From the NCBI RefSeq assembly GCF_024713945.1, contig NC_134680.1, positions 3,372,001 to 3,436,000 on the forward strand: a DNA stretch of 64,000 bases. The letters run 5' to 3'. Below, one piece after another: positions 1 to 16,500 of the stretch; position 1 is the stretch's first letter; the number at the start of each line of letters is the position of its first letter. This stretch comes from Dermatophagoides farinae (Eukaryota; Arthropoda; Arachnida; Sarcoptiformes; Pyroglyphidae). The notes under the pieces are model-generated. The model ran no database searches. It worked only from the letters and a program-made list of their open reading frames with translations, and was not told the origin of the DNA. The translations under genes were made by a program, and so were the position numbers.

Positions 1-1107
1 AAATAGATAACATTGTTTAATGGCAAGATATCTATAAAGTGAACATTTGAATATATTTTTTTTTTGTTTCAAATTCTTTAAAATATCGTTACACAAACAA
101 ACTGAGACATACCTATCGAATGCCATTAATAGATGCATAAATGATGATGCAATAGGTGCAACATAGAAACCGAATCGTAATGATGTTATTATGAAACAAT
201 AATAATTTGAACATAATGTTGTTGTTGTTGTCGTTGTTGTTGTTGTTGGTAATATTTCAATTGTTTCCAAATACATTGCCGGTACACATATTGAACTATA
301 TAATATAACAGATATTGATAATGATATAAATGATTGTTGTGTATGTGAAAATGATCTTGATGTTGTTGCCGTTGCCGTTGTTGTCGTTGTTGTTGTCGCT
401 GTTGTTGTTGCTATCGATGAAACAACACCACGTACAATCGTAGAATCATTGGATAATCTTTTATTAACTAGATTATTATTTTTATATTGTGATGATGTAT
501 TCACCATTGTTGATGTTGTTGATAAACTATTCTGGCGGCTACCACCGCCGGATTGTTCGGCATTACAATAACGATTTAAAATCAATGTAATAATTACAAA
601 TAAATTCAATAAAAACGTAATGATTGCCGTTATAAAAATTGACGAACCAAATAACATTTGTTCCCATTCATCAAGCATTTCAACCGGTGCATGTGGTTGA
701 CATAAAAGATTATTGTTGCTATTATTATTATGATTAATAATATGAATATCACTTTTATTATCTAGATTTTTAATATTTGTATAATTAATTATTGTTGAAT
801 TTATTGTTGTTTCATTATTATTATTATTATTATATAACAACATTGATGATGATGATGGTGATGATGATGATAATGACAATGATGGCGATGAGGTAGAACT
901 ATTATTCAATAATAATGATATAATCATTTTTGATTGATTCATTTGTTGACTAGATGTGTGATTATTATCATGATGATAATGATGATGATGATGATGATGA
1001 TTATGTTGAGAAAATTGTACATTACCACCACCTAATGAACCACTAATACCGCCATTACTACCTGGCGGTAAATAATGGCCAATAATACCTTGATTTGATT
1101 GAATCAT
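1..1107 (-). CDS. Rhodopsin-class (class A) GPCR, amino-terminal part, cut by window edge
   Basis: Exon 1 runs 1107 to 113 (ATG at 1107-1105) and the next exon starts at 31 and leaves the window. The 81-bp intron (32-112, GT-AG) splits the Arg codon of the TM3 motif; joining gives DRYLAI, the class A signature (D331 R332 Y333). About 150 N-terminal residues are rich in His, Ser and Asn with N-glycosylation-type sites. TM1 is near 150-178 and has an LNLFVI core matching the N1.50 region. TM2 is near 259-282 and TM3 near 300-328, opening with two Cys. Oddities: the first intracellular loop is about 75 residues (Ser/Thr-rich) instead of about 6, and the usual Asp of TM2 appears replaced by Val or Ser. 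The plasma-membrane receptor role is known of the family; the ligand cannot be told from this half. TM4-TM7 lie beyond the window. Confidence 0.8.
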   Translation of the reverse strand, partial: MIQSNQGIIGHYLPPGSNGGISGSLGGGNVQFSQHNHHHHHHHYHHDNNHTSSQQMNQSKMIISLLLNNSSTSSPSLSLSSSSPSSSSMLLYNNNNNNETTINSTIINYTNIKNLDNKSDIHIINHNNNSNNNLLCQPHAPVEMLDEWEQMLFGSSIFITAIITFLLNLFVIITLILNRYCNAEQSGGGSRQNSLSTTSTMVNTSSQYKNNNLVNKRLSNDSTIVRGVVSSIATTTATTTTTTTATATTSRSFSHTQQSFISLSISVILYSSICVPAMYLETIEILPTTTTTTTTTTLCSNYYCFIITSLRFGFYVAPIASSFMHLLMAFDRYVSVCLCNDILKNLKQKKNIFKCSLYRYLAIKQCYLF

Positions 1108-1501
1108 ATTTTTATCGTTGTTTATTGTTTGGATTTTATTTCAAAAAAAAAATAAAAATAAAAATATTAGATCAATACATTTTGATCATAAACACACTGT
1201 TCACAAGAACATTGTATTGTATTGGTCATCACTGATCATCATCGTCGTCGTTGTCGTTGAATGATTTGAAATGAGGCACACACACACAAAAAAAATTTTC
1301 TCGTAATAAATAAATCCATTGGAAACGACAACAATTTTCTTGAAAAAAATAACTTGATCCTTTCGAAGTTTCTCTCACTTTTAGAGTGTTTTCTCTTTAC
1401 CAAATTTCTCTTTGCGTTAATCAATATAAATTTAAAGGCAAAATATTTTTGAAATGAAAATGACAAAATCTTCAATATCCAAAAAAAATCAATTTCGAAA
1501 T

Positions 1502-1525
1502 CACACACACACACACACACACACA
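1502..1525. repeat. (CA)n microsatellite
   Basis: A perfect CA dinucleotide tract about 24 bp long in the upstream flank of the GPCR. Confidence 0.9.
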
Positions 1526-1833
1526 AACACTGAGAGAACTTGCTTGGATAATATCAGCAGATTAATGAAAAAAATTCAAGAAAAAAGTTAAAAAAAGAAA
1601 TGAAAAACATAATTTTATTTGGACGATGACTACGACGACGACGACAACAACAACGGCGATGATGAAGATGTTGAAATGAGAGAAAAAAAAAACTAAGCCA
1701 CTTGTATGATTGAATGGATGAATGCAATGGTCATATAATAAAAACTTCAAGTGGCACAAATAATAATCACATTCTTATTGATCAGCAGACGATATTTTTT
1801 TTTCTAATTTTTGTTATTTCAAATATCTATTAC

Positions 1834-1917
1834 CAGGAGTCGACAAGCTTTTGGTAGCTGCTTGCTAAACGCTATAGCTTTACATTGGCACACAGTGCTT
1901 GGAGTTGAAGACCACTG
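1834..1917. mobile_element. Probable non-autonomous hAT-like element (MITE), 84 bp
   Basis: The block is about 48% GC (40 of 84 bases) in visibly AT-rich surroundings. Its ends read CAGGAGTCGACAA and, inverted, CAGTGGTCTTCAA; 9 of 13 positions match and both fit the CAGnnGTCnnCAA form common in hAT terminal repeats. It is flanked by ATCTATTAC on the left (1825-1833) and ATCTATAC on the right (1918-1925). That is an 8-bp duplication with one extra T on the left, and 8 bp is the hAT target-site size. It has no coding capacity, so mobilisation would need a transposase from elsewhere. The element is very short, so ancient decay or chance cannot be excluded. Confidence 0.6.
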
Positions 1918-3320
1918 ATCTATACCATTGCATCGTTTAATGTATCGTTTTTTATGTTTGAAAAAAATTAAAAAAAATTTTTAACTTTTCAAATTAATCG
2001 AAACAAAATGAATGGATTTTAAGATGCTCTCGATTTTTTTTTGTCACGGTGGAAGTTTTTTTTGCGATGAACACACACACACACACACGACAACGGCATT
2101 GAATGATTAGAAACAATATTGCATTGCAATTGTTGGCGACGAGAGAATTGAATTGAATTGAATGATGATGTTCAAAACAAACTTCAAATTGAATCAAATC
2201 AAATCGAATATTTTCTTGTTTTCAGAAAATCCGAGCTTGCGTGATTCGGTGCGTGGTTAAATCAAATTGAAACCTGTATAGATAGATCAAACACATATAA
2301 ATTGATTATAACGACCATTGATCTTTGACGATAATTATGATTATGATTATGATGTAAAATGGATGCTCAAAACAAAATAAAACTAATTATTATTTTTATT
2401 CAAATTAATTTTTTTTTCTTTTCGTTTTTCTTAGTTCAAAAAACTTTTCACTGTAAAATAAAATATTCAGAATTTAATATTTCAAAATTGAATTCAGTTT
2501 TTCATTTTGTGTCTGTGTGTGTGTGTGTGTTCATGGATTATTTCAACGCCAGAAACACGAAAATAGAGAGAAAAAAACAAACAAACAAACACTTGAAAAA
2601 AAACCCAAAGGAATTTATCCGGTGTTGATTTGATCAAAACGAATGATGAATTTGAAATCGTTGGTTTCTTTGAAAATTCGTTATTTATTCAATGAATTTT
2701 CATGGAATTTTTTTTTTCGTCATTCATTCAATTCATTTAAATGTCAATAACTTTTTCTTCCGTTTTTCTTCCATCACTTTCAAAATTCATCATCATCATT
2801 CAAACTTGTTGTACATAACCGAATCATTCCTTTTTTTTATTCAGTAACTTCTACAAAAAAGAAGAGAAAAAACGATTGAAAAATTTAATCAAAAAAATAT
2901 GAATTTTTTTTAATTTTAGATTGCTTAGTAAAAAACTCTTGTTTTGACTTTTTTGTATAATGATTTTGTTGTTGTTTTAATAATATTTTTTCAATCCAAT
3001 TTCATTTCGATTTAATGATGATGATGATGATGATTACGAAATCTCATCATAACGCCATCGACCCGAGAATGTATATATATATATATTGAGATTATAAGGC
3101 CAAACAAGTCCTAATCGAATTTGTTTTTGTGTAGTTGTTTTTCGATTTGACGCTGTTATTTATATTTGAAATTGAAAAATAATGGAAATTAAAATATGAT
3201 TTCAATTTATATTCACACAAATGACTTCGCATATATTTTTTTTTGTTTACAAGTTCAAGGATTTTGGAATCAAACACAAACAAAAATTGATTGCGAGGAT
3301 TGTATATGATTATGATTGTG

Positions 3321-3326
3321 TTTATT
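3321..3326 (-). promoter_or_regulatory. Candidate polyadenylation signal of first LBD gene
   Basis: AATAAA on the minus strand, about 80 bp past the stop codon of the gene ending at 3408. Position and sequence fit; no transcript evidence. Confidence 0.4.
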
Positions 3327-3407
3327 TTTATGCATGTTTTTTTTCATCCATCCAAAAAGATTTCCATTCTGATTTTGAAAATTTAATTTTATATAATTCT
3401 TGATTAT

Positions 3408-5063
3408 TCAAATAAATAAATAAAAAATTAATGTTTGAAATGAAAAAACAATCATTGAATTCATTGCTAATGATGATGATAATGATGACATTTGTCGTTG
3501 TTGTCTACCTTCACGGCGACAATTATTTAACCAATGTCGATCACGAATCTGTTGTAGAATGCCTTCTTTATCCATCATATCTAATGTATGATCAAATTCA
3601 TTGAGCCAATTTCTTTGTTCTTGATTATTATTTAACGTAAACGATTTATCGATGAATGTTTTTGAAAAAGCAATAGCTATATTATTCTGAAATAATTCCT
3701 CTTTACGTATTGTTAATTGTTGTGCCATTATGGTCACTGTTGGTGTTGTTACTGATGATCCATTTGATGTTGTTGTTGGCCCATTCGAAATACCAATATC
3801 AAAATGTACATTTTTTTTATTATTTTTCATTTCTAACCAAATACGTTGTCGTCGTGCAACATCAATACTAGTATATTCACAATCATGATGATCGACAAAA
3901 TAATCGATAAATTTTGATTCATCAATCAATACATATCGTTGTCGTTGTAAACGTTGTAATAATGTTGATAATGATGAACGTTCAACAATGATTAAATCAT
4001 TTAGATAATCAATATTAATTGTTGAATAAAAACGATGTACGGCACCACCTTTGAATATAACACGTACAAGATCGGCTTGATTAAATATATCATGTATAGT
4101 CAACATTGGCATCTCATTAACATCATTATCATCATCATAATTAAAATAAAATTGGCCATTCTTCATTTCATCATCATTATTGTTATTGTTTGATTTATTC
4201 AAAATGATTGCACAATCAATCGATTGATGATTCATATCGATGAATCGTGAATAATCACTATGATTACGTACGTCGATTCGTATTTTTTGTTGCTGTAAAT
4301 CCATTTGACATTGTCGACGTTTACGTTGTATTAATTCTTTAAACAACGATTTCGTCAATAATACTTTCATTGTTGATATATAGATTGGTCGTGTGAATAT
4401 GATATCATTTTGTTCCGCTTCTTTACGTGTATTTAGCCAATTACTACTAATGTCACCAATTGCGAATTCAACATACTATAGTATGTGGAAATGGAAAAAA
4501 ATTGATTAGAATTTCATACGAAAAAAAAAAAACAGAACGGAAAACACAGACACACACAGACACACACCTTTTCGATAATTTCACCGAAAACACCATCATG
4601 TGATCGTATTGAACCAATTTGTCCATCATAACTTTGTCGTAATGTAAATTGAAATTTTAGACGATATCCCAATTCTTTTAGTATATCTACACAGAATCCA
4701 CGATATGGTCCACTTTCACTATAGATAAATGGTGGATTCTATATCGGTGGGCGACGAAAAAAAATGGATCAATTTTTTTTTGAAAATAAACCAAATTTAA
4801 TTTACCAATACGGTTGCACCATTCAATGTGATTACATTATCACTTTCGTCATCATCATCATCATCATCTTGATCTTGTTGTTGTAGATATAGCTGTTGCT
4901 GAATTTCATTCGAATGTTTATCAACAACATCTTCAACAGTGTCGACAATCCATTCACCTTCATTGTTAAAAATTGTAATTTGACTATTAACACTTTCAAT
5001 AATAATAATAATTATTATTATTAACAATAGTGAAATGAAGCATTGATTTTTATGATTTGCCAT
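3408..5063 (-). CDS. Secreted or GPI-anchored iGluR-type ligand-binding-domain protein, channel-less (copy A)
   Basis: Three exons: 5063-4806, 4738-4568, 4475-3408 (introns 67 and 92 bp, GT-AG, both phase 0), giving 498 aa. The ATG at 5063 gives a clean signal peptide of about 27 aa with a poly-Ile core; an in-frame ATG lies 5 codons upstream. The mature part starts with an acidic Asp/Gln stretch, then lobe S1 (NPPFIYSESGPYRGF, YVEFAIGDI, IIFTRPIY). A hydrophilic linker of about 75 aa stands where iGluRs have M1-M3. Lobe S2 follows (LTIHDIFNQ, FKGGAVHRFYS, YVLIDES, NNIAIAFSK, EGILQQIRDRHW). Two Cys (DHHDCEY and NNCRR) match the conserved S2 disulfide, and Asp of LIDES sits at the ligand amino-group position. 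A Ser-rich stretch and a short hydrophobic tail at the C-terminus fit a GPI signal. Ligand unknown. Tandem paralogue of the gene at 7297-8610. Confidence 0.82.
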
Positions 5064-7181
5064 GGCCACAATTATCAAAGTTTTTTTTTTTGCTGTTGTT
5101 ACGAATCAGTTTTCCAATTGTATAACATTATTATTATTGTTATAATTTAATGCATTGACTGGACGATTATATCGATAAATTGAATAGATATTTGGTAGAT
5201 CGAAATTTGTTCACATCCATCAATGTGATTGTTATTGTGATCCACCAATGATATAGACTACCCAACAAAGAAAAAAAATATCATCAATTTGAAAATATCA
5301 AACCGATTAAATTGTAAACATTGAAGCAAGAGAAATAAGATATATATAATATATAATATTCAAGCCACACCAAAACCGGATGTTATTCAATTTGATCAAA
5401 TTCAATTAAGATTGTTTAAGCCAAAATGTGTTGCATATGATTGCTGCTATATATAATGAATTGTAACAAAAGTCGAACCTAACGGAAGCAACAACAAAAA
5501 CAGCAACAAAACATAGATGTCAAAAAAATCAGAAAAAAAACCAGAACCAAAAATTGATTTTTATTCAATTTATTTATTTACTTTTTTTTGTTGTTGAAAA
5601 TAATATTCCACATTTCAAAAGAATAGAATGGCAAGAATAAAATCATCATAATGAATAAATGAATGAATGACAAGTAACCAAAAAAAAAAAAAAAAAACAC
5701 AAGAAAACGGAAAATGGAACCAAAAAAAAAAATATAAAAATTTGTAACATTCAATTACATGCTTTCATGCTGCAATACACTCTTCTGACGACCACGATGA
5801 TGTTTGGAACGAACAAAATTGTTTTTTTTTCACGTTTTGAAAATTAAATCAAACACATTCGAACTGAATGAATGAAAAAAACAAAAATCAAAAACAGCCA
5901 AAAAAAACTTAAAAATATCTATATGTTTTGTTATATCAATGTATATATCAAAGAATATATATATTTTTATTATTATTAATTATGCATGTTCATGTGGGTG
6001 TGTGTGTAACATATACGATTTATGTTTGAGTTATTCCGAATAGCAATAATAATAATAATGATGGTGATGGTGATGATGATAATGATAATGATGATGAGTA
6101 TGATGACGATGTTAATACAATTCTACTTTGAATATATTATCTTTTTCTACAATTCATCATTCAGTATTCGATATTCAGATCGATAAATTAATGTTTTTTT
6201 TTTTTTTTTTTTGGTTTTGGTATGTGGCTAATAGTAGTGGGCAAAAAAAAAAGATTTAAACATTTTGAAAATCCTTTTTTCACATTTGGCATATTATGGT
6301 AATGGTGATATTGCTTGATTTTTGTTTTGTTTTTTGTTTTTTGTTTTTGTTTCTTTTTTGGTGGACAACAATTTGTGAATATTCAATTGAATTGCGAGAG
6401 AAGAAAAAACTTTTGCTTCATTCATGTGATTGAGTTTGATGATAGGCAATATTGATTGATTGTTTGTTGATTTTTTTCTTCGTTTTTAGATTATTGATTT
6501 TTTTGGTTGTTGTTTCAAATCAAACTTCTTTTTTTTTGGTTTACCTGAGAATCATACAAGTATTCGATGTTGTCATTGTCATTGTTGTTCTTGTTTATTA
6601 TTGTTGTGATTGGAGCAAAACAAAAAAAAACAAAAAATTCTTTTGAACATTTTGTATGATGTTTTATGCGCGTGTATATGTTATGAGCGTTTGAATGAAT
6701 GTAGGTAAAATGTCAAGCGAGATCCGTAAAGCATCGAAAGATCAAAATAAAATGAAATGTGAGAACAAATGAATTGTCAAATGAAAATTACACATTATTT
6801 ACAAATAATAATTCAATTTTTTTTGTTGTATCGAATGAATAAATGAATAACGCTACGGCATTATAACCACTATATGGATTTTTTTTTTGGCTAAAATTAA
6901 TTGTTGTGAAAAAAAAACAGAAAACAGTATAATGTTTTGTTATTGTGTCAAAAAACAATTTAACCCCTTTTTTTCTGCATCATTTTTCTGTTTGTGTGTG
7001 TTCGAACCAATATTTGTATTTGGCACTGAGAAAAAAAAGATGAATCAATCGACAATTTGTATTTTGGAAGCAAAAAATATATATGAGTATATTGAACGAG
7101 GATTGTGTGTCTGAAATATATATTCTAGAGTGGATGAAATTCATAGAGTAATTTTTTTGAAATTTTTTTTTTGTTTTGTTT
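5064..7181. other. Intergenic stretch between the two LBD genes
   Basis: No supported gene over about 2.1 kb. It holds long A and T homopolymers (for example near 5679-5697 and 6194-6211), GAT/GGT-type trinucleotide runs near 6057-6110, a T-rich (G)TTTTT tract near 6320-6360 and short palindromic AT stretches near 5340-5360. It contains the 3' end of copy B and the upstream flank of copy A. Confidence 0.55.
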
Positions 7182-7187
7182 TTTATT
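7182..7187 (-). promoter_or_regulatory. Candidate polyadenylation signal of second LBD gene
   Basis: AATAAA on the minus strand, about 110 bp beyond the stop codon at 7297. Weak evidence, because such hexamers are frequent in this AT-rich DNA. Confidence 0.3.
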
Positions 7188-7236
7188 TTTTGGTTATAAT
7201 TCTTAGTTGTTTGGTCATTGTGGACAATTATTCTTT

Positions 7237-7277
7237 CTCTCTCTCTCTCTCTGGTGTGTGTGTGTGTGTGTGTGTGC
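7237..7277. repeat. Compound (CT)n(GT)n microsatellite
   Basis: A CT tract runs directly into a GT tract just downstream of the stop codon of the second LBD gene, probably within its 3' untranslated region. Confidence 0.85.
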
Positions 7278-7296
7278 GTTTGCAAGCATAGAATAT

Positions 7297-8610
7297 TTAA
7301 CTAAGAATAAATAATGACAAGAATAATGAGAATAATGTTGTCACAACGGTTAACATATAACGATATTGTTCAAAACTATTCACACCACCATTACATTTAC
7401 GATTCCAATAACGGCGTTTCAATTCATCTAAACGGCCATTAGCTTTTAATTCACGTATAGCACGATTCATTATCTCCAAATGTGTGGAATATTTTTGTCC
7501 AATTATACCATATTCGTAATGTGTATCGGCCATTGGAAAATTTGTTGATTCCAATTTAATATGTTTTAATTCGCAATTTTCATCCATTGCCAATTCATTA
7601 TTAATACTTTCCTGTTTGTTGTTGTTGTTTTTTTTTTTGGAAATGAAAAAAATCATCAATCATCAATTAAAATCCGACTTATTACCTGTATGAATGCATA
7701 TGGTGTTTTCATTGCTCTTTCAATGCCTATCTGACGATTTTCGGCCATATTACCAGGATTATTATGCAATTGTTCATAAATACGACGACTTAATGGATCG
7801 GTACCGACACTCAAATCTCGATAGATTTGTCGTACAGTACCTAATTGTATTATTTCTTCTGGTTGTTGCTGTTGTTGTTGATTAGATTGCTGTGATTGAT
7901 ACGATTGTTGTTGTTGATTTACAACCGGTATCACTGCTGGTGGTTTAGACCGTTGATCCAATAAGTCATCAATAGTTTTGATATTATTCTGTATGATACG
8001 ATCTTTATGTATCAATGCACTCAGATTTGATTCCATATATGAATCACTGAAATCAACATAACGTTGTTGACTTGCCGTACGATATAGATAATCAGCGATT
8101 GCAAAATCAACTCTCTAAATTAACCATTGTAATCAGCGATATTTAGAGAAAAAAATGATTACTTATCATTACTTACATTACGGAAAACTTCATTAATCAG
8201 ACCGGTTGGACGACTTTGAAATCCATCATTTGTTGAATCCTGATTAACCGAATCGGTTAATGTATAATTAAAATTACCAATTTGTGCCATTTCATTCAAA
8301 AGATCAACAAAATAGCCAGTTAGTTTGCCATTCAAATCTTTTTCAACAAATGGTGGTCGCTATTGTCGCCATAAAAATTTTAGGAGAAAAAATTCAAATT
8401 TAAAAATGTCAACATTTTAATCTATCTTCACACAATCACATTCAATAAATCAAATTTAAATTAATTAAATTGATTGAATATTACACTTACCAATGTTGTT
8501 AAACCACGCAATGTTGGTCGATTTTGATTAGCTGGTTGTGCCCATATTGACATATTGGTCATCATTGCAATTGCAATGAAAATTAATATTATTGATGAAT
8601 AAGGTGGCAT
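7297..8610 (-). CDS. Secreted or GPI-anchored iGluR-type ligand-binding-domain protein, channel-less (copy B)
   Basis: Four exons: 8610-8491, 8359-8177, 8114-7686, 7611-7297 (all introns phase 0, GT-AG), giving 348 aa. The ATG at 8610 opens a signal peptide (MPPYSSIILIFIAIAMM, cleaved near WAQ). Lobe S1: RPPFVEKDLNGKLTGYFVDL, RVDFAIADYLYR, VDFSDSYMESNLSALI. A hydrophilic Gln-rich linker follows, with no membrane segment. Lobe S2: KTIDDLLDQ, IQLGTVRQIYRDL, TPYAFIQES, YEYGIIGQKYS, LKANGRLDELKRRYWNRKC. Glu of FIQES matches the ligand amino-group Glu of AMPA-type receptors, and the DENC and NRKC cysteines match the S2 disulfide. The Arg that binds the ligand carboxylate in S1 is shifted or replaced (Gln at the expected place). 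The last about 20 residues are hydrophobic and end at the stop, as in GPI precursors. Its first two introns sit at the same sites as in copy A. Confidence 0.83.
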
Positions 8611-11600
8611 CTTTTCTCTTTTAGTTGTGATTGTTGAAATTTGAAATTCAAAACAAATTTCTTTCTGGTCACAAATTAATATCTGATAAACTGTTTCACA
8701 ACACAGATACACAAACACACAAAGAATCGTTGATGGTGATGATGGCCTAGTTTAACACTTAAGAATTCAATGATTTAAAATGAAAATTCTTTTTGGAATG
8801 TTTTTTCGATGTTAAATGATAATATTCTATATGTGGTTCGTTAGTTTGTTGTTGTTGTTGTTATTTTTCCTAGATCAAAACCGAATACAATTGAATAAAT
8901 GAATGAAATGAGCCGACTCACTTTGTTGTTCCATTTGGAACATACTATTATAATGTATTACTAAGTAGAGTGAGTGAGTTGTAGCAAAGTTTTAGGTGAA
9001 GGTTACCGAAATGAACAATTTTTTTCGCGAAATATATGGCGGGTACATTTGATAGTGAAGGCGGTGGTGGTGGTGTTGATGGTAGTGGCGTTTGATTTTC
9101 AACTATACCCGTCACGTATTTATATACATTGATGATCATATAGGATCCATTTTTGAATGAATGAATAAATGGATGGCCTTGGAACACAATATAATGACAC
9201 AATAACAACGATAACAACAAATAAAAAAATAAAATATTTTTTGGAATCCTGAAATGAATAGTGGTGATGTTGGTGCCGATGGCTGGTGATGCGAATGTTT
9301 TATGTTGTGATGCTAATGTATTTTGTGTGTGTAGCATCCAATCCATATATAATAACAATTTCAAGTTAGAAAGCCAAATAGTACTGATTTTCAATTCATG
9401 GTTGTGGTGGTGGTTCGTATTGATAGTTTTCATAGTATTTGGGTTCGTTTGATAAGTTAGGCTGAAATGTGGATGTCATCATCATTCATTCGTTCGTTTC
9501 AGTATGTGATCTATGAAGCTATAGAATGAATGGTATGTTTTCAAGATGTAAATGAAGATGTGTATTTATTGTTTATATATTCTTGGGTGGTGGTTTTGTT
9601 CGTTTTTTTGTTTGAGTTCATTTGTGTGTGTATGGGCCCAATGCTAGGACCATCAATATTTGGTGAATTTTTTTTTAAATATAAAAGTTCACCAATTTTT
9701 TTTTTGTTATTGTTGTTATTGGTTGATATTAGAAAACCAAATCCCAAAAATTGAAGCATGTGACTATGATTATCATTTTTTTCGGTTTTTGTTTTATTTT
9801 TGCTCATTGTAATGCGGTATTATTTTATTCTGGCTATATATTATGTTTGGAAAATATAATATGTGTGTGTAGGAGTAGAACCTAGCTAGCTAAAAATGAA
9901 TTTTCTATTATTAGTTTCTTGACTATCTATATATATAAAGGAAGACAATTTTATTTTCTAGTTGACTCTCTTCTTTTCTCTCTCTCTCTCTCTCTCTCTG
10001 GAAAAAAACACGGTCATCATATCGTCATTGTCCTTGAGCTAGTTATTTTGATTTTGTTTCGTGAAAAAAAAGAAAAAATTCTGCCCTCCCGGAACAGATG
10101 TGAAAATGTTATCGTTATCATTATTTGTATACCATTTTTGGATTTTCGGAGCATGTTCCAAATAGAATTAATAGCCATTATAGATCCAGTAAGATTCAAG
10201 GACTTGAAAGGGACTTTTTTCTCTTTCTATTTCATTTCTTTGATATTTTTATTTATATGAATCAATTTTATCAATTTTTTTGAGTGAGTGTGTGTGTGTA
10301 TATGAGTGTTGATCGTGTGTACATTAAACCAATGAGAATGAAGAACGGATTGAATTAAGAATCGATCCAGGCAACGAGAAAAAAAAGGAGAAAAATCAAC
10401 ATTGAAAAATATTTTTTATATAGTAATGAAGCAAACAATAAGAGTGAACAAACAATTTTGTTCTAAGGTTTTGAATTTCAATTTTTTCTTTACTTTGCTC
10501 CAATCAAATCGAATGATAATCCGAATTTCCACATCCCTAAAAAAAATATTCAACTGATAGTTTATACATTTATGTATCATTTATTTTTTTTTTATTTTAG
10601 AAATTCGAAACCAAAAGAAAAAAAATGTTGAATTGCAACCAAATCGTTCGATATGGTTTGATTTATTATTAATTAAAATAATACTGATATATAATAATGA
10701 TGATGTCAATTTTGTACCACCATCAATTATCATCAGTATAGAGAAATAAAAATCAAATTTGAAAATGTATAAAAAATGTTAATCAATGTCATTGTGGATG
10801 ATGATGCAATAAATGAGCCATATTCACAATAATGATGGTGAAAAAAAAAGTTATCTAGGTATGAATTTTCAATTAATTAATTGGATCAAACAAACAAGCT
10901 TTTTTTATTTATTGGAAATCTCAACGATCAATCGATTATCGATATCAAATTATATTGTCCTTTTTGCCTCTTTCGCTTTGAGTGTGTGCGTGTTAATGAT
11001 AAATGATAAAATTTTTCTGTAATAATAATGTCATGATTTTGATAATTATGGTAATTATAATTATGAGAAAAGTGGAAAGATAAAACGAATAAAAAAAAAT
11101 TAGGCGCGCTAAAAATTTGAAATCAAAATACAGTGCGAAATGGATGGCCCAAAAAAAACGCTCAACAAAAGTTTAAAATTCATTACCATTATCATTGATT
11201 GAAATGAATAGCATGGCATTAGCGACATGAAAAAAAATCATAATTGTAAATTATCATCATTATCAATGTGTATGCCTCTACCAATGTATGTGTGTGTGTG
11301 TGTGTTTGACAATCGATAATTGAATTGATTTTTTTTTGCCTGTTTAACTAGTTAGTTGGTCAAAATCAAACCAAACCTTCAAAACGATACGCATCACACC
11401 ACTATTACCACCACCGGTATGATATATAAACACTTGTTGTTTAATTCATTCTGAATGAAACATTCATAGCACACACACACACACACCATCGATATACACA
11501 AAGTACTGGTTTTCCTTGATATTATCATTCCGTCATATTCATTGCTAAAACATTGTTTTTTACAGGAAAAAACAGACAAAGACAACAAATACGAGCGAGA

Positions 11601-11724
11601 AATAATTCACATTTACCACATTTGACACGTCAACAAAGGAAACGTTAATTTTCTCAACAAAAGTGTTGATTTTTTTATTTGTGTTTTAATTCTTCAACAA
11701 AATTATCAAATCTCTTCAATCAAA
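8611..11724. other. Intergenic stretch between LBD copy B and transaldolase
   Basis: Shared upstream region of two divergent genes: copy B reads left and transaldolase reads right. It contains a (CT)n run near 9977-9999, GT runs near 11288-11304, CA runs near 11469-11486, T and A homopolymers, and one 161-codon open frame listed separately. No other coding signal recognised. Confidence 0.55.
8948..9433 (-). CDS. Unrecognised open reading frame, 161 aa, doubtful
   Basis: ATG at 9433-9431 and a stop at 8948. The product has a His/Asn-rich start, a hydrophobic stretch around residues 75-95 (PKNILFFYLLLSLLLC) and a Pro run (PLPSTPPPPPSLSN). It is longer than most chance frames in this AT-rich DNA, but it matches no family I recognise and its 3' part overlaps simple GGT repeats. 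It could be a real lineage-specific gene, an exon of one, or chance. Confidence 0.15.
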   Translation of the reverse strand: MKTINTNHHHNHELKISTIWLSNLKLLLYMDWMLHTQNTLASQHKTFASPAIGTNITTIHFRIPKNILFFYLLLSLLLCHYIVFQGHPFIHSFKNGSYMIINVYKYVTGIVENQTPLPSTPPPPPSLSNVPAIYFAKKIVHFGNLHLKLCYNSLTLLSNTL

Positions 11725-12708
11725 ATGGAATCTTCAATTTTATCATCATTGGAACAACTTCGTCAACATGGTACGATTGTCGTTGCCGACACAGGTGATT
11801 TTCAATCAATAAAATCATTTAAACCAACTGATGCTACAACAAATCCATCATTGATATTGGCCGCATCAAAATTACCACAATATTCACATCTATTCGATAA
11901 AGCAGTTGAATATGGCCGTCAATATCCAGAAAATTCATTAGAATCAGCTATGGATTATCTATTCGTATTGTTTGGTCAAGAAATATTGAAAATTATTCCT
12001 GGCCGTGTATCGACCGAAGTTGATGCACGTCTTAGTTTCGATATTGATGGATCCGTACAAAAAGCTCGTAAAATTATTGAATTATATGAAACAATGGGTA
12101 TCGGAAAAGATCGAATATTGATCAAATTGGCCACCACATGGGAAGGTGTAAAAGCGGCCGAAATTCTTGAAAAACAATACGGTATTCATTGTAATATGAC
12201 ATTATTGTTCAATTTTGCACAGGCTGTTGCATGTGCCGAATCAAATGTAACATTAATCTCACCATTTGTTGGCCGTATTTATGATTGGTATTGTAAACGT
12301 ACAGGCGTAAAGATTTATGAAAATCCAGCTGATGATCCAGGTGTTAAATCAGTGACAAGTATCTATAATTACTATAAACATCATGGCTATAAAACCGTTG
12401 TAATGGGTGCATCATTTCGTAATATTGATCAGATTAAATCATTGGCTGGTTGTGATCTATTAACAATTGCACCATCATTATTAGCACAATTAGAAGCAGA
12501 AACAAATGTACAAATAAACTGTTATCTGGATCCGAAAAAATCCGCCGAAATAGATACATTTAAAACACCGGTACATTATGATGAAAAACGTTTTCGTTGG
12601 GAATTGAATGAAGATGAAATGGCAACCGAAAAATTATCCGAAGGTATAAGAAAATTTGCTGCTGATGCACGACAATTAGAAACATTGATTAAACAACGAT
12701 TGTCATAA
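11725..12708 (+). CDS. TALDO1: Transaldolase
   Basis: Single uninterrupted frame of 327 aa, close to the usual 320-340 aa. It transfers a dihydroxyacetone unit between sugar phosphates in the non-oxidative pentose phosphate pathway, in the cytosol. Motifs in order: VADTGDF near 20-26 (catalytic Asp region), [11 protein letters not shown] near 36-46, [11 protein letters not shown] near 131-141 with the Schiff-base Lys, then [39 protein letters not shown] and LTIAPSLL. The ATG at 11725 (AAAATGG context) gives the family's normal N-terminus. It is the only gene here without introns, and its frame is nearly free of the homopolymer runs seen in its neighbours. It converges on the PAK gene (3' ends about 850 bp apart). 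Confidence 0.97.
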
Positions 12709-13562: not shown

Positions 13563-16500
13563 TCAATGAGTACGTGCTGCTTCTCTTGCTGCTAATATTA
13601 ATGGATTTAATGTTGATAACGGACTTGATGTCTTCAAGAATGGATGCTATAAAACGAGATTATAGTTTATTATGTAATGGGCGTGGGTATGAAAAGAGAA
13701 AAAAATGGAACAAAAAAAAAATTCAAATTAAATAAAATGAAACACGCGATCGATTTCCAAAAAACATACTTTTAGTAATTCAGATGCTGACCATCGTTTT
13801 TCAACATCACACTCAAGGCACTTGTCCAGGAAATCTTGAAATAAAAGCGATAATTTTTCTTTCTCTTTAATTTCCGGCTTTCCATTTGTTGCGATCAGAT
13901 AAATAGCCTGTAGTGTGAGAAAAAAAAACATTAAAATCTGAAAATGAAAAAAAATCCTAATCATACCCGTAATGGATCACTTTCGTTCATATATGGTGGT
14001 TCACCTTCAATCATTTCGATGGCCATTATACCCAGTGACCATATATCAATTTTTGGTCCATATTGTTTACGTGTAACAACTTCCGGTGCCATCCAATATG
14101 GCGTACCGACCATTGTTGTACGTTTATTTTGTTCTGGTGATATTTGTGCACAGAAACCAAAATCAGTCAATTTTACTGATCCATCAAGGCCTAACAATAT
14201 GTTATCGGATTTTATATCACGATGTATAACATGATTATAGTGAAGAAATTCCAATGCTTGCAATACTTCACGACAAACGGCAGCAATCTGACCTTCTTCC
14301 ATACAGGTTTCAGTAACCACATCGGTTAATGATCCACCGCTTAGATATTCCATTACTACCCATAATTCTTCGCCCACTAGATATGAATCCAGATAATTCA
14401 CTACATTTGGATGTTTATTCTCACGCATCACAAGTATTTCATTGACAATCAATTCTTTTTTTGGCTGTTGTGATAGATTCATCTGTTTAATAGCTACTTG
14501 CATTCCGGTACTAATTTCAATGGCCGTATATACAACACCACTTGCCCCTTGTCCAATACGTTCCATTTTAGTAAATTTTCGATGTGGATCACCGATAGTA
14601 ACTATTGATCGTAATCGTTCTAAAATCTCTTCATCAGACATTTTATTTGCAGCGATTTGATTCGGTTTAGGCACACGTGGTTTCAATAGTGGTGTCGGTG
14701 GTGGTAACATTGGTGATTGGACATTATTATTATTATTATTATTATGAGAATGCTGCTGCTGTTGTTGAAGATGACCAGGATTCATCATCAGAATCGTTTT
14801 GGCAAATGCCGCTGATTGAGCTGAACATAATTTGGAACAAATTTCATTATTATTATTATGATTAACGATTTTTGATTTATTAATAGGTGATTGATTAGAT
14901 GATACAGGCGTAGATAGTAAGAATGGATCATTATTATTATTAGATTCAATCAAAGTAATAGGAGAATTATTATCGGAAATGGAAGCGGAAATAATTTTAG
15001 CATCAACAGTAGTAGAAGTAGTAATAGTGGTAGTAGCGGAAGCAGTAGAAATTATAAGAGCAGAATTTGTATCATCATCATTATTGTTCTTACCGATTGT
15101 CATGTTTTGATTCGAATTATTATTATTATTAAGAATATCACGTGGTGAAATTGGTTTCGTATAAATGGATTTTGTTTTTTCTGGTCTAGGATTAATAGGC
15201 GGCGGTATCGATGATGATGACTTATTATTATTTATGTTGATCATTGATTCATTTTGATTCAAATCTATTGATTGTAATTTCTTCAACATTGATGATGAAG
15301 ATGGTGATATTGTTTCGGATAACGATGGCAAAGCAGCAGAGCCGACACCACTACCATTACTACCAATACTATTGCCACTATTCGATAATTTCAATGCTGG
15401 TCCACCACCACCACCACTTGCTGATGAAAAACAATTCATCGATGATGAACTTGATATTGAACCGGAACCAGATGATGATAAAATTGATCCAGTTATGGTT
15501 ACATTATTATTGTCGATTCCAGTGGTGGTGGTTACCACCCCTAAGCCACTACCGGCCAATGTTGATGAATTTGTTGCCGATGTTAAAAGGCTACATGCTG
15601 ATGTTTGTCCGGTTGCTGTTGTACAATGTATATCATCTGATGATGATGATGTTGCTGTTGGACTAGTCGAACCACCGGTAGGGCTGGTGGTTGTTGTTAA
15701 AGTTGAAAATGTTGATAATGATGATGATGTTGATGATGATATTATACCAGTTATCGGATGTTGTTGTTGCTGCTGCTGTTGTACGGTCGTTGATGATGAT
15801 CCAAGTTTTGTTCCAGGTGCTCTTGGTGGTGTCGGTGGTAGACCGGAATTATTTAATTTAGTTTGAGGCGTTGGTGGAGGTAATGCTGGTGATGGTCGAT
15901 GTTGATACAATGATGACCCTTGTTGTTGTTGTGTTTGTGATGTTGAAAGATGTATATGATGATGATGGCTTGGATGATATCCACCACCATGATAATGATT
16001 ATTATTATTATAATGATGGCTTGAAAGTGTTGGCTGTGAACCAGATAACAATAATTCATTATAATGATGATGTGGATGTCCATGATGTGTATGATGGCCA
16101 TGATGTAAAAAACTATTTATATGATGATGTGATCCAGATATTGATGATTTATCCGATGAGGAATGTGATGTTGATTCTGTATCTAAAAATTATTTGTGTT
16201 ATTATTATTGTTGTGTGTTTGAATCAATCAGAAATCAATACAAAGAAAAAGAGAGAGAGAGAAAAATAAACAAAAAAAAATGTAAGAAACCAGAAAACCA
16301 AAATTTGCACAGCACAATAATTGCCCAAAAAATTACAAAAAAAACCGGAAAAAATAGAAAATAAAATTTCAAAACAAATTAAAATGTCAACAAAAAAAAA
16401 ACTAAAAATAGCCAGAAAAAAGCAATATATAATTTTCTTCAAAAACAAAAAAAACCAAACATTCAAACATACAATATTCTAATTCTAAAATAAAATAAAA

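Follow-up and report, generated by a model that had tools for sequence, protein, structure and literature searches.

A mite gene family that carries the ligand-binding lobes of glutamate receptors without the ion channel

The S1 and S2 lobes that bind the ligand in ionotropic glutamate receptors (iGluRs) are well known in a channel-less form as a laboratory construct, namely the engineered GluA2 and GluK S1S2 proteins made for crystallisation. Here, we describe S1S2 genes of the mite Dermatophagoides farinae, two of which, gene A and gene B, are neighbours on the minus strand of the window (the whole stretch of 64,000 nucleotides that was analysed, C4:3372001-3436000). Like the constructs, they join S1 to S2 without a channel, and their family can be aligned with the constructs end to end; in the mite, however, the S1S2 cut is found in genes. 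With AMPA, kainate and delta receptors (KaiR1D, GluK, GluA and GluD), the mite family shares both lobes, the S2 cysteine and intron places, and six members found outside the window, genes C-H, also share the arginine for the ligand's carboxylate and the S2 acidic residue. Unlike these receptors, the family has no M1-pore-M3 segment, no SYTANLAAF motif, no amino-terminal domain and no M4 with a cytosolic tail.

A channel-less relative of the binding domain of a neurotransmitter receptor is already known in the acetylcholine-binding protein, a pentameric ring of the Cys-loop superfamily with a fold unrelated to S1S2; the mite family is a possible parallel. Passages of two papers state that the acetylcholine-binding protein is secreted by molluscan glia and was proposed to suppress or buffer the transmitter, a role called unclear or contested, and that this role is doubted for a putative member in the spider Cupiennius salei (PMC3423370, PMC4569296). 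Arthropod ionotropic receptors (IRs) resemble the mite family in that most have no conventional amino-terminal domain, and in the loss of ligand residues, as in genes A and B. However, IRs keep the channel domain, and the profile of the mite family best matches AMPA/kainate/delta domains (best 60 of 430 sequences in the PDB).

We consider it probable that at least eight mite genes descend from an AMPA/kainate-type receptor that lost its amino-terminal domain and M1-pore-M3, and that their products would be extracellular clamshells that capture ligands. The architecture of the gene models, the homology, the shared introns and the absence of channel sequence were observed directly, while the location of the products and the capture of ligands are what we infer.

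Gene models in the window and elsewhere in the genome

The genes were modelled on genomic DNA, with the splice sites of A and B set by hand from frame and homology. Gene B (7297-8610) encodes 348 residues in four exons. The first (8491-8610) holds a signal region, hydrophobic over residues 4-25, and the start of the first S1 strand, and the second (8177-8359) holds the first part of S1 (RPPFVEKDLNGKLTGYFVDLL...). The third (7686-8114) runs from the end of S1 through a glutamine-rich linker into the start of S2, at the place where a receptor would have M1-pore-M3. The remaining S2, with its cysteine pair (C257 and C317), the C-terminal end and the stop are encoded by the fourth (7297-7611), and hydropathy reveals a hydrophobic C-terminal end at residues 328-348 (7300-7362) without a polar tail behind it. 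Pfam recognised Lig_chan-Glu_bd in the product (1.1e-14) as well as SBP_bac_3, extending from S1 into S2 (5.2e-12). Leave-one-out profiles scored S1 at 71.6 bits and S2 at 78.3 bits (at most 1.1 and 3.5 in 200 shuffles), and gene B alone reached 3.6e-16 at best against the PDB.

Gene A (3408-5063) encodes 498 residues in three exons, and the five introns of the two genes together are all GT..AG and all phase 0. Exon 1 (4806-5063) comprises a hydrophobic signal region (residues 2-33) and an acidic stretch, and ends in GATVL. Exon 2 (4568-4738) carries the first part of S1 (NPPFIYSESGPYRGFCVDIL...), and a PF10613 genome match at C4:3376568-3376720, window positions 4568-4720, falls on it. Exon 3 (3408-4475) covers the end of S1, a long polar linker, a diverged S2 with cysteines at residues 342 and 462, the C-terminal end and the stop; hydropathy, Pfam and a scan for the pore motif found nothing membrane-spanning between the two lobes in this exon. 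The C-terminal end, residues 479-498 (3411-3470), is hydrophobic by hydropathy and resembles a glycosylphosphatidylinositol signal by position only. Exon 3 stays open for 355 codons, compared with a longest frame of 157 in 2000 Markov-1 simulations, and this long open frame is beyond chance. Pfam matched gene A with Lig_chan-Glu_bd (2.9e-12) and, from S1 into S2, with SBP_bac_3 (1.2e-5, below that family's cut-off), and its S1 received 47.5 bits from the leave-one-out profile (maximum of 200 shuffles: 7.4).

An earlier note on this DNA had described A and B as a tandem pair of binding domains with no ion channel. Gene models, Pfam and the pore-motif scan agree on this architecture, and the junction of S1 and S2 was found within one exon exactly where the note had placed it (4475-3408 in A and 8114-7686 in B). 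The models and hydropathy likewise recovered, in both genes, the signal region, S1, S2 with its cysteine pair and the hydrophobic C-terminal end that it had listed, and its view of A and B as natural S1S2-type proteins, probably extracellular, agrees with our own reading of the predicted products. The word "tandem pair" holds for their position only: A and B are neighbours in the genome, but they are not sisters in our tree, and the family to which they belong counts at least eight genes.

The other members came from a search of the 62.4 Mb genome (22 contigs) with the S1 profile, which gave 49 rows; 16 regions, whose rows had no obvious channel partner or served for comparison, were fetched and all read by eye, mostly on one strand. 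Five of these regions held six further channel-less genes. In gene C (C4:2798 kb, 395 residues), nearly the whole of S1S2 is one exon. Gene D (C3:661 kb, L011:1893-5461) encodes 506 residues, including a tail of about 200 residues past S2 that is rich in histidine, glutamine, serine and asparagine and closes in a hydrophobic run, and gene E (C3:676 kb) encodes 345. Genes F and G (C4:2093 and 2090 kb, L014:1865-5747; 288 and 443 residues) are arranged head to head at a distance of 1.4 kb, with a long proline/glutamine-rich tail at the end of G, and gene H (C4:3460 kb, L016) encodes 323 residues. Genome searches with SBP_bac_3, and others that used proteins D, B, H, A and E as queries, returned loci that had already been read or that carry Lig_chan, and no ninth gene; since only the best candidates were scored in the genome searches, eight is a lower bound.

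All eight models are open to their stops, and identity between the genes is roughly 21-49%. The S2 cysteine pair is invariant in the alignment (8/8), and phase-0 introns stand at common places, before NWPY/xPPF in every gene and before xADFAIAD in seven of the eight (gene C has none there). The S1-S2 junction lies inside an exon in 8/8 models. In Pfam runs in which four of the eight proteins were entered without their tails, PF10613 was above the cut-off in all eight, and SBP_bac_3 matched all eight, with A alone below the cut-off. Both lobes of each of the eight genes scored above 200 shuffles each with the leave-one-out profiles.

The missing channel and the relationship to AMPA/kainate-type receptors

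The channel domain Lig_chan (PF00060) matched none of the eight proteins up to E 0.1, and none of its 35 genome matches falls in the window or at the eight loci. The SYTANLAAF pore motif was absent from window positions 1-12000 in any frame at five or more of its nine residues, and was not found at six or more in the five loci that hold C-H. The same scan recovered 8-9 of the nine residues in 7/7 channelled loci, and Lig_chan matches the third exon of the channelled loci L037 and L038 at about 1e-49. None of the eight proteins has an inner hydrophobic segment (19-residue mean of at least 1.6). As for the amino-terminal domain, at most about 85 residues precede S1, and PF01094 did not appear in the Pfam listing, which extended to E 0.1.

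The spacing of the two lobes points in the same direction. In C-H, the genes for which it was compared (A and B were left out) and which also trained the profile, the S1 match and the S2 match are separated by 24-63 bases (6/6), versus at least 393 bases in 14/14 receptor loci (L025-L038) and at least 503 in three IR-type loci where both lobes were matched (L013, L015 and L021). As read by eye, membrane segments follow S1 in the remaining 11 of the 16 regions (L010, L013, L015 and L017-L024), and likewise in L040 and L041. Apart from L020, these loci hold several clusters of strongly diverged IR-type genes, many of which are in tandem, with three genes within L013 (C4:1279-1287 kb). L020 (C10:1571-1578 kb) is a channelled receptor gene, NMDA-like by eye, with a long Asp/Asn-rich open frame before it.

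When the eight-gene profile was searched against the PDB, 430 distinct sequences matched at E <=0.001, and the best 60 of them are all named glutamate receptors (kainate, delta, AMPA and CG3822, with two rows called "Glutamate receptor"). The best matches were CG3822 of Drosophila (7.6e-52), which we take to be KaiR1D, and GluK4 (1.5e-51). With crystallised S1S2 constructs from kainate, delta and AMPA receptors, the profile aligns end to end, S1 and S2 both being covered in full. Gene D on its own gave a best match of 1.1e-32, and its best 60 of 424 are again all glutamate receptors.

Introns connect the family with receptor genes of the same genome. Four channelled loci (L035, L036, L037 and L038) have the intron before xAD at the identical codon boundary and in the same phase. 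The intron before xxPY recurs in L037, again with its place and phase unchanged. L030 also has an intron close by, but not at the same position. In L037 and L038, a single frame of 355-356 codons in exon 3 takes in the S1 end, M1, pore, M3, S2 and M4, and 122 residues separate the S1 end from the S2 start. An in-frame loss of about 122 codons from such an exon would give the channel-less S1-S2 junction, while the lost amino-terminal domain and the altered tails would need further events. We infer that an AMPA/kainate-type gene underwent a single loss and was then duplicated. L037 (C2:283 kb) and L038 (C5:688 kb) are closely similar KaiR1D-like genes on different contigs, and the intron found before GEPYC in L037 is missing from L038.

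We also built an unrooted tree of the eight channel-less genes, 13 channelled ones and two reference domains over 218 columns (L034, with S2 found in part only, L039, with no profile match, and the IR-type genes were left out). The eight are split from the 15 channel-bearing receptor sequences with an ultrafast bootstrap of 100.

Ligand site, proposed function and rival explanations

In glutamate receptors, an S1 arginine holds the carboxylate of the ligand. Compared with KaiR1D, this arginine is kept in C-H (6/8) and is replaced by glutamate in A and by glutamine in B, and the S2 acidic residue is kept in all eight. Four of five checked contacts are kept in D, F and H: in all three these are T, R, T and E, and the fifth, the serine, is A in D and F and K in H. 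With both the arginine and the acidic residue in place, alpha-amino acids would be the likeliest ligands of C-H. Classical amino-acid binding is least likely for exactly A and B, in which, the arginine being gone, the ligand would be a different one or none, as has happened in chemosensory IRs.

The products would either be released from the cell or stay attached to its outside. The 19-residue hydropathy mean reaches 1.6 at the N-terminal end of 6/8 proteins (not E and F) and at the C-terminal end of four (A, B, C and E); the C-terminal end is weaker in D and H and absent from F and G. In the six proteins that have it, the hydrophobic stretch stands at the very end, with one to six residues after the core.

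A protein without a channel cannot conduct; the plainest use of a secreted or tethered clamshell would be the binding of ligands outside the cell. There, the two-lobed products may capture small ligands, in the way that the acetylcholine-binding protein employs a nicotinic receptor's binding domain, and by doing so they would buffer amino-acid signals, or carry them, in haemolymph, synapses or sensilla. The best reading of these sequences is a family of putative secreted or membrane-tethered amino-acid-binding proteins, which, by analogy, would be the glutamate-receptor counterpart of the acetylcholine-binding protein. A more specific proposal is that the mites' counterpart is a multigene family of natural S1S2 proteins, secreted or tethered at the surface, that arose by one in-frame channel loss in a kainate-type gene and that buffers or carries glutamate-like amino acids outside the cell, with A and B retuned to other ligands; this we offer tentatively, as somewhat doubtful in its full form.

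The same domains could instead serve as auxiliary partners, in which a channel-less domain pairs through the dimer face with full receptors or IRs and tunes or blocks them. Their derivation from receptors, the well-kept S1 lobe and the presence of channelled receptors and IRs in the same genome would all suit such a role. However, two of the proteins (F and G) lack a hydrophobic C-terminal end and gene A carries long polar inserts, and we regard this role as rather unlikely.

It could also be argued that the genes are decaying receptor copies, pseudogenes or fragments that are open by chance, as the strong divergence and weak S2 of gene A and the loss of the ligand arginine from both window genes might suggest. 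Against this stand the eight models open to their stops, with common splice places and the cysteine pair in each, the long frame of gene A, and the identical junction retained at such low identity between the genes. Selection was assessed in six genes (A and E were left out as poorly aligned), by comparing the proportions of nonsynonymous (pN) and synonymous (pS) differences. In frame, pN was below pS in 15/15 pairs, with a mean ratio of 0.75, but the same held for 13/15 pairs in each of the two wrong frames, where the ratios were 0.91 and 0.93. This indicates modest purifying selection. We consider decay unlikely, and the results support the earlier note in that A and B are not obvious pseudogenes.

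Several results weigh against descent from an AMPA/kainate-type receptor and extracellular capture, among them the wrong-frame ratios and the arginine missing from A and B. Others concern gene A: its S2 scored 17.1 bits (shuffle maximum: 6.5), with the match confined to the last 33 residues, and its best phmmer match in the PDB (7.2e-5) covers S1 alone. The structure prediction that the earlier note had suggested was run on A exon 3 and two short rows of B, and was uninformative either way, with a mean pLDDT (predicted local distance difference test) of 38.7 and a pTM (predicted template modelling score) of 0.21. As the S2 of A is only weakly recognised, the earlier note's claim that both copies keep the landmarks of the fold stands on safe ground for B, but on weak ground for A. 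The tree, too, did not recover the position of the family within the AMPA/kainate clade. The sister relationship with the KaiR1D-like L037/L038 that the introns suggested was rejected by the approximately unbiased (AU) test (0.014), while the Shimodaira-Hasegawa (SH) test did not reject it (0.19). Gene A alone beside the KaiR1D group was also rejected by AU (3e-4) and not by SH (0.082), and gene B alone beside that group was rejected by both (AU 2.7e-6, SH 5e-4). Given the AU rejection of KaiR1D sistership, we limit our claim to descent of the AMPA/kainate type.

The best unrooted tree in fact sets the eight genes outside all the channelled sequences used in it, including L031, which is NMDA-like by eye. 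This would fit an old ligand-binding family that branched off before the AMPA/kainate types and never lost a channel. However, the introns are exactly common with AMPA/kainate-like genes, nesting of the eight inside the AMPA/kainate types was not rejected (AU p 0.38, with L028, L031 and L033 set outside by eye), and long branches tend to be drawn outward, and we find such an old origin decidedly unlikely.

Ordinary channel subunits, with their membrane exons joined by alternative or trans-splicing, are very improbable: trans-splicing is compatible with the coordinates alone, but the junction lies inside an exon in all eight models, the eight loci have no Lig_chan match, and the pore motif stays below 6/9 in the five C-H loci and below 5/9 in the first 12,000 positions of the window. 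That bacterial family 3 solute-binding proteins were gained by horizontal transfer can hardly be credited: the contiguous two-lobed domain and the SBP_bac_3 matches through S1 and S2 recall them, but the best 60 PDB matches, both of the family profile and of gene D, are the glutamate receptors named above, the introns are common with receptor genes of the same genome, and a pattern scan with gene C found no relative in bacterial genomes. Scans of viral contigs found none either (these two collections hold no animals and are silent on other mites). Horizontal transfer, alternative splicing and pseudogenes were each tested and disfavoured.

Place in the literature and meaning of the family

The earlier note did not know this architecture as a described family, and among the results listed by full-text searches of an open-access library, we found no description of a channel-less or mite glutamate-receptor family of this kind (subscription journals, supplements and database records lay outside this search). 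In the passages that we cite, one survey defines iGluRs and IRs by the ion channel domain PF00060 with its pore motif (PMC2924276), and another removed iGluR sequences with fewer than four residues of SYTANLAAF (PMC6307864). Surveys that demand the channel domain or the pore motif would drop such genes, which may therefore be overlooked elsewhere. For the scabies mite (Sarcoptes), Table 6 of one paper contains several short kainate-like proteins of 147-357 residues, and the accompanying passages make no remark on a missing channel (PMC4930577); for the red mite, PF00060 is given for 5/11 IR/iGluR transcripts in the relevant part of another (PMC7578799).

Several other genes were noted along the way. 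The window also contains a transaldolase gene in one open frame (11719-12708, plus strand; PF00923, 8.1e-93) and a large open frame in which a long stretch of low complexity precedes a protein kinase domain (13961-16189, minus strand; PF00069, 1.9e-65). Gene H is adjoined by small tandem proteins (L016:4196-6704, plus strand) that by eye look helical and allergen-like, and the two that were tested matched no Pfam family above the cut-off. The genome holds three matches to the mite-allergen family Blo-t-5 (best 2.6e-53).

Evolution seems to have made the S1S2 cut itself and to have kept it in at least eight copies. If this is true, binding could be studied apart from gating in a soluble model that nature supplies, and, as extracellular mite proteins, the products of the family may also be of interest to allergy research. 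It would also mean that in animals the part of a glutamate receptor that binds the ligand can stand as a protein of its own, as the acetylcholine-binding protein showed for nicotinic receptors.

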